This document shows, one piece after another, positions 18,231-23,069 of a stretch of 64,000 nt of DNA (positions are counted from its first letter, which is position 1; every line of letters begins with the position of its first letter). The notes beneath the pieces are model-generated. The model worked only from the letters and a program-made list of their open reading frames with translations, was not told where the DNA came from and did no database searches. A program made the position numbers and the translations under genes. Source of the stretch: Alphaproteobacteria bacterium (GTDB taxonomy: Bacteria > Pseudomonadota > Alphaproteobacteria > Micropepsales > Micropepsaceae); NCBI GenBank assembly GCA_947473475.1, contig CANJBZ010000023.1, positions 1 to 64,000 on the forward strand, in the 5' to 3' direction.

Positions 18231-19363
18231 GGCGCCGCTCCAACGAATGACGTCAGCGCCAGATCGTCGCGATGGATCATCTCGTCGCGTCCACGATAAC
18301 CGAGAATGGCTTCGATATCGACGGTACGGCGGCCGGTCAGGCGTTTGGCGTCTTCCGAATTGTAAGCAATGAGACCGCGCGCCAGTTCGCGCCCGTCTTC
18401 GCTTTTCACGACGACGGCATCGCCGCGCTCGAACTGTCCGCTGACGGATTTGACCCCAGCGGGTAAGAGGCTTTTGCCCGACGACAGCGCCCGTTCCGCG
18501 CCGTTATCGATAACGATCGTGCCGAGCGCGGAAAGCCCACCGGCGATCCAGCGCTTTTTGGCTTGCGCGGGAGAAACGCGCGGCACAAACAACGTCGTGC
18601 GCGGCGCAGTGGCAATTGAGGCCAGCGGATGCAGCACATGGCCGTTCGCGATGATGACGCCCGCGCCAGCGCCGGTTGCGATTTTAGCGGCGACGATTTT
18701 GGACTCCATGCCGCCTTTGCTGAATCCCGAAACCGGCCCTTCCGCCATGCGCTCGATCTCCGGCGTAATCGCCGGCACTTCCGCAATGTGCGTGGCGGTG
18801 GGATCGCGCTGCGGATTGGCGGTGTAGAGCCCGTCGATATCGGACAGCAACACCAGCATGTCCGCTTCCATCATGGACGCAACGCGCGCACCCAAGCGGT
18901 CATTGTCGCCATAGCGGATTTCCGCCGTCGCGACCGTGTCGTTCTCATTGATGACGGGAACCGATCCCAGCGACAGCAACGTCGCCAAGGTCTCGCGCGC
19001 GTTCAGGTAGCGCCGGCGTTCTTCCGTGTCTTCGAGCGTCAAAAGAATTTGTGCGACAGTAATATCGTAGGCGAGAAAGGCGTCCACATAGGCTTGGGCG
19101 AGCTGAACCTGTCCGACAGCCGCAGCCGCCTGACTTTCCTCCAGCCGCAACGCGCCCGCTTTCAATTTCAGGGCCCGGCGTCCAAGGGCAATCGCGCCGG
19201 AGGAAACGACAATGATTTCCTTTCCGGCGCGCTTCAGGGCGGCGATGTCCGCGGCAAGGCTCGCCAGCCAGTCGCGCTTCAGCGCACCGGCTTTGGAATC
19301 GACCAGTAATGCCGAACCGACTTTGACGACGATACGTTTGGCTTGGACCAGGTGATCTGTCAC
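18227..19363 (-). CDS. proB: Glutamate 5-kinase ProB with PUA domain
   Basis: A 378-residue kinase with an amino-acid kinase domain (about 1-260; [62 protein letters not shown]) and a C-terminal PUA domain (about 280-370; [25 protein letters not shown]). It phosphorylates glutamate in the first step of proline synthesis and is usually feedback-inhibited by proline. It overlaps proA by 4 bp. Upstream is an inverted repeat that separates it from obgE. Confidence 0.97.
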
Positions 19364-19368
19364 GACCG

Positions 19369-19463
19369 CCCCCTCACCCCGACCCTCTCCCCCTGGAGGG
19401 GAAAGGGAGGTTGTGCACGAATCCCCCTCGCCCCCGGAGGGGGAGAGGGTTGGGGTGAGGGGG
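19369..19463. repeat. CCCCTCACCCC...GGGGTGAGGGG inverted-repeat element
   Basis: About 95 bp with near-perfect terminal arms (CCCCCTCACCCCGACCCTCT and AGAGGGTTGGGGTGAGGGGG) and an internal pair (CCCCCTGGAGGGG; CCCCCGGAGGGGG). This class of GC-rich intergenic palindrome is frequent in proteobacterial genomes. It lies between obgE and proB, both on the minus strand, and could attenuate readthrough. Confidence 0.7.
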
Positions 19464-19502
19464 AGCTGCTAAAGACAAGCTCTCTGCCGAAAATATGCAC
19501 AC

Positions 19503-20833
<1,331 letters not shown>

Positions 20834-21589: not shown

Positions 21590-21617
21590 AATATAGCCAC
21601 CGAACTTGCTCAGTCAA
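21590..21617 (-). promoter_or_regulatory. Sigma-70 type promoter of rplU-rpmA
   Basis: Minus strand: -35 TTGACT (21617-21612), 16-bp spacer beginning GAGCAAGTT, -10 TATATT (21595-21590). The predicted start is near 21583, giving a leader of about 60 nt. The nine spacer bases after the -35 are identical to those in the rpsD promoter. Confidence 0.75.
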
Positions 21618-21668
21618 CCCTTACTCCAACTCTTGCCAGGGCGTTTGCGGCGGTCTACCCGGACATTC

Positions 21669-22271
21669 ATGTCTCTGGCCCTCGACCGGCTCTACCATTT
21701 GCACTGGGTAATGCCCGAGCTGGCGCGCAGCGCGCAGCCCTATATGGGCTTTTACCGGGCGTTTTTGCGTCCCCATGGCTTTAAAAGTATCATCAATTTA
21801 CGGGGGCCCAACCCGGATTTCGGCTGGTGGCATCAAGAGAAGCGGGCCGCGGAAAGTCTCGGGATTGCCCATTTCGACGTGAAACTATCCTCCAAATACC
21901 TGCCGGCGCGCTCGGGGATGGCCGAGCTTTTTAACGCTTTCGACCGCGCAGGGACCCCTTTGCTGCTGAAATGCAGCGGCGGGCAGGACCGGACGAGCTT
22001 GGCCGCCGCCCTTTATTTGCTGCATCGGCAGGGACCAGGGGCGCTTGCGGAGGCCATGGGACAGTTTGCCTTCTGGCCTTATCTGCACCGGCCCAAGCCC
22101 CACCAGCTCTGGCTTAGGGAATTCCCTGGCTACGCCCTGCGGGAGGCGGGGGGGCTCACTTTGGGGGATTGGGCGCGAACCCGCTACGATCCGCAAGGAT
22201 TTGCGCGCTTTCTTGACGATAAGGGCATGGGCACGAGTTTTCGCGCTTTTCAGGCCGAAGCGCCGGGATGA
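21669..22271 (+). CDS. Dual-specificity/tyrosine phosphatase-like protein
   Basis: A 200-residue protein with a phosphatase fold: the acidic region SIINLRGPNPDFGWWHQEK and the P-loop CSGGQDR (C-x5-R) followed by TS, as in small DSP-type phosphatases. The target could be a protein, lipid or nucleotide phosphate. The start is uncertain: ATG 21669 (MSLALDRLYHLHWV) fits relatives better than 21606. Its stop overlaps the alkB start by 4 bp, so the two are cotranscribed. Confidence 0.75.
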   Translation: MSLALDRLYHLHWVMPELARSAQPYMGFYRAFLRPHGFKSIINLRGPNPDFGWWHQEKRAAESLGIAHFDVKLSSKYLPARSGMAELFNAFDRAGTPLLLKCSGGQDRTSLAAALYLLHRQGPGALAEAMGQFAFWPYLHRPKPHQLWLREFPGYALREAGGLTLGDWARTRYDPQGFARFLDDKGMGTSFRAFQAEAPG

Positions 22272-22894
22272 GCCGCCGTCTGGAGCTGGCGCCCGGCGTT
22301 CAGTATTGGCCGGAAAAGCTCAATCAAGCCGCAGAAGCGGGGCTGCTTGCCGATGTCATGGCTGGGATCGCGGCCGCGCCGCTTTACCGTCCGGCCATGC
22401 CCGGCAGCGGCGCATTGCTGTCGGTGGAGATGACCAATTTCGGCCCGCTGGGCTGGGTGACCGATCAGGCCAAAGGGTACCGTTACGAGCCGCTGCACCC
22501 GGTCACCGGCGAAGCGTGGCCCGATATCCCAGATCCCCTGCTTGAGCTTTGGCATGAGCTGACGGATTACCGCGCTCCACCGGAAGCCTGTCTGGTCAAT
22601 CTTTACCGGGATGCGGCTCGGATGGGGTTGCACCGGGACGCCGATGAGCAGGCTGCCGATGCCCCGGTTCTGTCCGTCTCGCTCGGCGACACCGCGCTTT
22701 TCCGCTTCGGTGGGCTTACCCGGCGCGGGCCTACCGCCTCGGTGAAGCTGCATTCGGGGGATGTTCTGATGTTCGGCGGCCCGGCACGCATGATGTTTCA
22801 CGGTATCGACCGGATCCAGGCCGGCAGCAGCGGCCTTATCCCAGGCGGCGGGCGGATCAATCTGACGCTCAGGCGGGTGACGAACCCCGCGTAA
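22268..22894 (+). CDS. alkB: Alpha-ketoglutarate-dependent DNA repair dioxygenase AlkB
   Basis: A 208-residue Fe(II)/2-oxoglutarate dioxygenase. Iron ligands are H and D in GLHRDADE and the H in MMFHGIDRI, and the 2-oxoglutarate-binding Arg residues lie in the C-terminal RINLTLRRV. The substrate lid contains NLYRDAARMG. AlkB oxidatively removes 1-methyladenine and 3-methylcytosine from DNA and RNA. It is translationally coupled to the upstream phosphatase-like gene (ATGA overlap); I see no ada-like site. Confidence 0.93.
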   Translation: MSRRLELAPGVQYWPEKLNQAAEAGLLADVMAGIAAAPLYRPAMPGSGALLSVEMTNFGPLGWVTDQAKGYRYEPLHPVTGEAWPDIPDPLLELWHELTDYRAPPEACLVNLYRDAARMGLHRDADEQAADAPVLSVSLGDTALFRFGGLTRRGPTASVKLHSGDVLMFGGPARMMFHGIDRIQAGSSGLIPGGGRINLTLRRVTNPA

Positions 22895-22897
22895 GCC

Positions 22898-22932
22898 AAA
22901 AAGGCGACCGGTCGGGGGGCCAACCGGTCGCC
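22898..22932 (-). terminator. Rho-independent terminator of the candidate small RNA
   Basis: Minus strand: perfect 10-bp stem GGCGACCGGT/ACCGGTCGCC, 10-nt C-rich loop, then five T residues. On the plus strand no T-run follows, so it acts on leftward transcripts (the small RNA and any readthrough from the aminotransferase gene). Confidence 0.85.
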
Positions 22933-23034
22933 GAATGCGCTCTTCGCGCTGGATGCCGGGAGGGGATGACCGGCACCCTGGGGACGCATCAATCTGCTAG
23001 CGGGGGCAATGCAGATCGAACGTCTCGTCCCACC
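22898..23034 (-). ncRNA. Candidate small RNA, about 137 nt, with C-rich loops
   Basis: There is no reading frame, but a complete minus-strand transcription unit is visible: promoter TTGAAA-N17-TATGTT (23069-23041), predicted start near 23034, and three consecutive hairpins. Hairpin 1 has stem ATCTGC/GCAGAT (23016-22992) with loop ATTGCCCCCGCTA. Hairpin 2 has stem GGGTGCCGG/CCGGCATCC (22978-22951; one G-U pair) with loop TCATCCCCTC. Hairpin 3 is the terminator stem GGCGACCGGT/ACCGGTCGCC with loop TGGCCCCCCG, followed by TTTTT. All three loops expose C-runs that could pair with Shine-Dalgarno sequences, a known mode of trans-acting sRNAs in alphaproteobacteria. It lies between alkB and the aminotransferase gene. 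I cannot match it to a named family. Confidence 0.65.
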
Positions 23035-23040
23035 GGAACT

Positions 23041-23069
23041 AACATAGGCATGAAAGACACAGGTTTCAA
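23041..23069 (-). promoter_or_regulatory. Promoter of the candidate small RNA
   Basis: Minus strand -35 TTGAAA (23069-23064), exactly 17 bp, -10 TATGTT (23046-23041). It directs transcription into the hairpin-rich segment ending at 22898. Confidence 0.6.

Follow-up and report, generated by a model that had tools for sequence, protein, structure and literature searches.

In the window, i.e. the whole 64,000-nucleotide stretch of DNA that was analysed, the minus strand carries an intergenic small RNA (sRNA) gene of 137 nt, which is RusT-like and runs from 23034 to 22898. Its upstream neighbour, in the same direction, is a class-III aminotransferase gene (PF00202; 23205..24617, minus strand), and downstream lies a convergent gene for an AlkB-like oxygenase (PF13532; 22268..22894, plus strand). 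The alkB gene and a phosphatase-like gene overlap by four bases (21606-22894 for the two together), and this pair adjoins the sRNA in most of the window's family. A sigma-70-type promoter, TTGAAA-N17-TATGTT (23041..23069, minus strand), precedes the RNA, with TTGAAA at 23064-23069 and TATGTT at 23041-23046, and the unit ends in an intrinsic terminator (22898..22932, minus strand), the stem of which, 22903-22932, is followed by U5. Promoter, unit and U-tailed terminator are all located where a sequence-only reading of this DNA had placed them. The promoter and the terminator were also recovered independently by a pattern scan, with short patterns of a kind that match shuffles as well.

Dinucleotide shuffles of the RNA fold at -52.9 +/- 4.0 kcal/mol and the RNA itself at -75.9 (z = -5.8), a value that none of 200 shuffles reached. 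Among 34 aligned loci from the window's family and its near relatives, 33 keep the promoter as TTG.AA..TGT..C-N5-TGCATA..TT with constant spacing, and this speaks for a transcript of its own; more distant orders have their own TTGAAA-like versions. Taken at the level of sequence, this confirms 22898-23034 as a real, independent bacterial sRNA gene. An encoded peptide was considered and rejected, the longest frames varying in both position and sequence among the homologues, and a search for a plasmid copy of the sRNA found none.

The sequence-only reading had described three successive hairpins with C-runs in all their loops. There are in fact four hairpins, a short one having been missed between the second and the terminator. 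Hairpin 1 (22979..23033, minus strand) is a long, covarying stem with a C-rich loop at its tip. Both sides change in 16 of 16 pairs of its two main helices, where 89-92% of cells are paired. Its loop, AUUGCCCCCGCUA (22998..23010, minus strand), is the first candidate pairing site; the G, the C-run, the GC and the next U are near-invariant in the alignment (UG(C)nGCU), the run being five C long here and six to eight elsewhere. Hairpin 2 (22951..22978, minus strand) has the stem GCCGG/CCGGC, in which the outer pairs covary and the inner GG/CC is fixed, and its loop, UCAUCCCCUC (22960..22969, minus strand), contains a UCCCCUC that is 97-100% conserved in 72 homologues. Its conservation, and a position that matches the seed of RusT, make it the likely seed. 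Hairpin 3, the additional one (GCGC-GAAGA-GCGC; 22937..22949, minus strand), has a loop that is not C-rich, with 98.6% of cells paired and few changes. The terminator is hairpin 4, with both-side changes in 11 of 13 pairs. The C-runs of the first two loops (UGCCCCCCCGCU and AUCCCCUCCC) are thus conserved, close to invariant across homologues, while at the terminator many of them carry other loops in place of the C-run.

A blastn comparison over 60 relatives gave 15 genomes with a match. Named genomes were scanned with a pattern, and of the 115 loci so obtained more than 60 are true; these come from Maricaulis, Parvularcula, Marinicaulis, Aquisalinus, one Parvibaculum MAG, one Rhizomicrobium MAG and other MAGs. 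A covariance model, R1, was built from 20 of the pattern-scan loci. It recovers the true set, has zero matches in loci that share only the pattern (such as L067 and L063) and gives the window RNA, its sole good copy in that genome, a score of 120.2 bits. Within the class, 33 of 289 genomes are matched, the weakest of them doubtfully; some of the weak matches (e.g. L160) were set aside as terminators only, by appearance. The homologues span Micropepsales, Maricaulales, Parvularculales, a Parvibaculum MAG and several further families.

The sequence-only reading had made its proposal depend on compensatory changes in the stems of homologues, and these are clear. In an alignment of 72 homologues, which was fitted to the model and hence leans towards it, 93.6% of cells pair and 34 of 43 stem pairs show changes on both sides. 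The compensatory cells number 659, a count reached in none of 500 shuffles, as compared to 55-129 when the partners are slid by one to three columns. The double changes of hairpin 1 are present also in an alignment made from sequence only. As loci collected with a loop pattern bias the conservation of the loops, a second sample was built from a protein that is often encoded 3' of the RNA and is present in 49 of 240 genomes of the class, ignoring the RNA itself. R1 recognised the RNA at 17 of 30 of these loci, and the first two loops were C-rich in all 17, with at least four C each, which implies that C-rich loops are under constraint. By these alignments the sRNA is real and ancient, and two of its C-rich loops have been preserved across many alphaproteobacterial families.

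The surroundings of the gene were compared over 82 loci, some of which share one genome. On the upstream side, the codirectional gene encodes LolA in 31 loci, a class-III aminotransferase in 17 (no more than 600 nt away) and, in 9, a class-I glutamine-amidotransferase-like (GATase) protein; in at least eight of these nine LolA is next. Downstream, 47 loci have the conserved protein mentioned above and 23, the window included, have a convergent AlkB. The homologues outside the window's family are mostly found at a site with the order lolA or aminotransferase, RNA, conserved protein and xth (exodeoxyribonuclease III), which was seen in more than 40 loci. The conserved protein has about 205 residues and a C-terminus of the form GRWP(I/V)GV.G..(F/L)N(L/I)F, is encoded in the same direction as the RNA, mostly 35-290 nt away, and has no match in Pfam or NCBIfam; it lies between lolA and xth in the genomes of the second sample (L350-L379; e.g. 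L350:1453-2100). The window copy has the aminotransferase-AlkB form, away from lolA-xth, and linking forms connect the two sites: LolA-GATase-RNA-AlkB (L065, L066, L127, L049 and L141) and aminotransferase-RNA-conserved protein-xth (L140 and L056). We read this gene order as a probable move of the sRNA gene, in the window's family, from an ancestral lolA-xth site to the alkB-aminotransferase gap. A search by xth gave genomes in which the RNA is directly between LolA and xth, as RusT is; the best of them is L449, with the loops CCCCCCC and UUCCCCUCCC. Whole-genome R1 matches of moderate score in three genomes (G051, G218 and G229) sit 39-89 nt upstream of xth.

It was also possible to observe shorter multi-hairpin RNAs just upstream of the exodeoxyribonuclease III gene in other alphaproteobacterial families (L450, L455, L434, L437, L420, L447, L444, L471 and L460). 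They have four hairpins, of which the second has a UCCCCU-like loop and the terminator a C-rich one, and none reaches an Rfam gathering score.

That the RNA could be placed in no named family was borne out by the Rfam covariance search, which, run at gathering and permissive thresholds, gave nothing beyond weak matches. These were to P15 (RF00627, 22.7 bits against a gathering score of 70), tfoR (RF02100, 19.4 of 70) and Rhizobiales-2 (RF01723, 17.7 of 40), all below gathering. The alpha-r8 sRNAs (suhB RF00519, MmgR, SisA-D) are similar in being alphaproteobacterial and having an anti-Shine-Dalgarno core (UUUCCUCCCU), but there the core is a single-stranded stretch and in the window RNA it is a hairpin loop. 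Membership was rejected, with no RF00519 match up to E 10, and the same genome has a separate, genuine alpha-r8/suhB sRNA at G000:C17:78978-79050 (L163; 59.5 bits). The alpha-r14 sRNA NfeR1 shares the several hairpins, conserved anti-Shine-Dalgarno loops and variable stems; it carries CCUCCUCCC in three loops (PMC10746234), whereas the window RNA is without CCUCCUCCC and has two different loop motifs. GsrN resembles it in that a C-rich loop pairs with G-rich mRNA sites, but GsrN is driven by sigma-T/EcfG and is mostly found near the ecfG locus in Caulobacteraceae (PMC5869019), in contrast to the TTGAAA/TATGTT promoter and lolA-xth ancestry seen here. The genome also contains a CC2171 (RF01867) match at G000:C8:6117-6280, which at 77.1 bits is above the family cut-off; as a marker of Caulobacteraceae genomes this family is useless, since it matches widely.

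A closer counterpart is RusT (CCNA_R0199) of Caulobacter crescentus, a 118-nt, Hfq-bound RNA encoded between lolA and xth (PMC11005374). It has four stem-loops, of which the last is the terminator and the third the Hfq site, and a conserved seed in stem-loop 2, with the pairing cytosine C53 in the loop (PMC11005374). NtrX binds its promoter, iron starvation induces it, and through the second loop it directly represses TonB-dependent receptors and OmpW (PMC11005374). The RusT RNAs described so far all come from Caulobacter and its near relatives. The homologues of the window RNA are at, or traceable to, the same intergenic site in the same direction, and the window RNA too has four stem-loops ending in the terminator, a seed-like UCCCCUC in stem-loop 2, equivalent by position, and a hairpin 3 that corresponds by position to the Hfq site. 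The window RNA differs in its length, about 137 nt, in its place between alkB and an aminotransferase gene and, against the published description of RusT, in a second conserved C-rich loop on the long hairpin 1; RusT, at 118 nt, probably has a shorter first hairpin. The RNAs between lolA and xth, the L449 form, the R1 matches by xth and the RusT architecture make orthology the most economical reading, and the window RNA is most likely a distant RusT orthologue, as compared by gene order and shape and not letter by letter. The sequence-only reading had seen here its best candidate for an undescribed regulatory system. Synteny and architecture instead tie the RNA to the characterised, Hfq-dependent RusT, and we read it as a new, widespread member of the RusT-type RNAs that is absent from Rfam, and not as a wholly new system.

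The likeness to RusT is one of gene order and architecture, several alphaproteobacterial sRNAs (NfeR1, PmaR, GsrN and SisA) have C-rich loops or stretches, and R1 scores the shorter RNAs upstream of xth weakly, 16-48 bits. It is conceivable, then, that the window RNA belongs to a true trans-acting family with anti-Shine-Dalgarno loops that is not homologous to RusT, two sRNAs sharing the lolA-xth neighbourhood. We consider this unlikely, as the intergenic site, the direction, the number and order of the hairpins and the C-rich second loop all agree, and there are intermediates that have the extra gene and others that lack it (L449, L350-L362). The orthology could also be taken further than we have done above. 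The RNA may be an ancient core alphaproteobacterial sRNA, older than several order splits, with two ultraconserved anti-Shine-Dalgarno loops that would make it a dual-seed regulator; in that case RusT would represent the short version found in Caulobacter, and the RNAs with four hairpins upstream of xth would belong here as well. We put this forward tentatively, as possible rather than probable.

As to function, it is reasonably probable that the window RNA is a trans-acting, base-pairing RusT orthologue with its own promoter and terminator, held by Hfq and blocking G-rich start regions with its C-rich loops. The sRNA would be made from its sigma-70-type promoter and stop at its own terminator. 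In hairpins 1 and 2 the C-rich loops would remain single-stranded, pair with G-rich sequence at the translation starts of several mRNAs and so block the entry of ribosomes. By analogy with RusT, hairpin 3 and the U-tail may hold Hfq, the repressed targets would include envelope and transport proteins, and there may be a link to NtrYX and iron limitation. The gene structure, the covariation, the conserved loops and promoter and the synteny are supported by sequence; pairing of the loops with Shine-Dalgarno sites is plausible, and is expected by analogy with RusT, NfeR1, SisA and GsrN. An hfq gene is encoded in the genome. Hfq binding by the window RNA is uncertain, as its terminator is not preceded by an AU-rich stretch.

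Two comparisons of possible targets were negative. Genes with a strong Shine-Dalgarno site in this genome (L231-L253, L274-L349) often encode exported or membrane proteins, as judged by a simple hydropathy rule. An enrichment of exported proteins among genes with a site complementary to loop 2 (GGAGGGGA before the start) looked promising at first and was gone when genes with other strong sites were used as the comparison set (9/17 as compared to 13/22, p 0.75). The starts of 17 TonB-dependent receptor genes were no more complementary to the two loops than those of 38 control genes (p 0.32 and 0.34). The genome has a single exact complement of loop 2, GGAGGGGATGA, namely the one opposite the sRNA. 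Separately, a recurring intergenic sequence with GGGGAGGGGA mimics Shine-Dalgarno start sites and inflates pattern counts; it was found at L231, L238, L241, L242, L247 and others in this genome, and in the window at 19343-19612 (PLTPTLSP-type frame).

With both of these tests negative, the C-rich loops could instead serve chiefly as a sponge for a G-rich partner, either an sRNA or a protein, rather than act on mRNAs. Such pairs exist, the G/A-rich CrfA of Caulobacter being a sponge of the C-rich SisA-D RNAs (PMC12559287), but no partner was identified here and RusT acts on its mRNAs directly through the second loop, and we regard this explanation as improbable. That the sRNA acts in cis on the downstream gene, as its leader or attenuator, as the conserved protein gene following at 47 loci might suggest, is hardly credible and largely refuted by the convergent loci. 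The RNA and its promoter and terminator are intact also where a convergent AlkB comes next, as it does in the window and at 22 further loci, and in several genomes the downstream gene is found without the RNA.

What makes the sRNA, most likely a distant RusT, notable is its age and the constraint on two of its loops; in kind it is ordinary. None of the examined loci matches an Rfam family, and the alignment presented here provides a model by which the RNA can be annotated. If the link to RusT holds, RusT-like RNAs would be among the more widely kept sRNAs of the alphaproteobacteria, with a position, a promoter and two loop seeds that can be tested in genomes that have no assigned sRNA family. 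The spread of the RNA also makes it possible to ask whether the control of the outer membrane under iron stress is an ancestral function.
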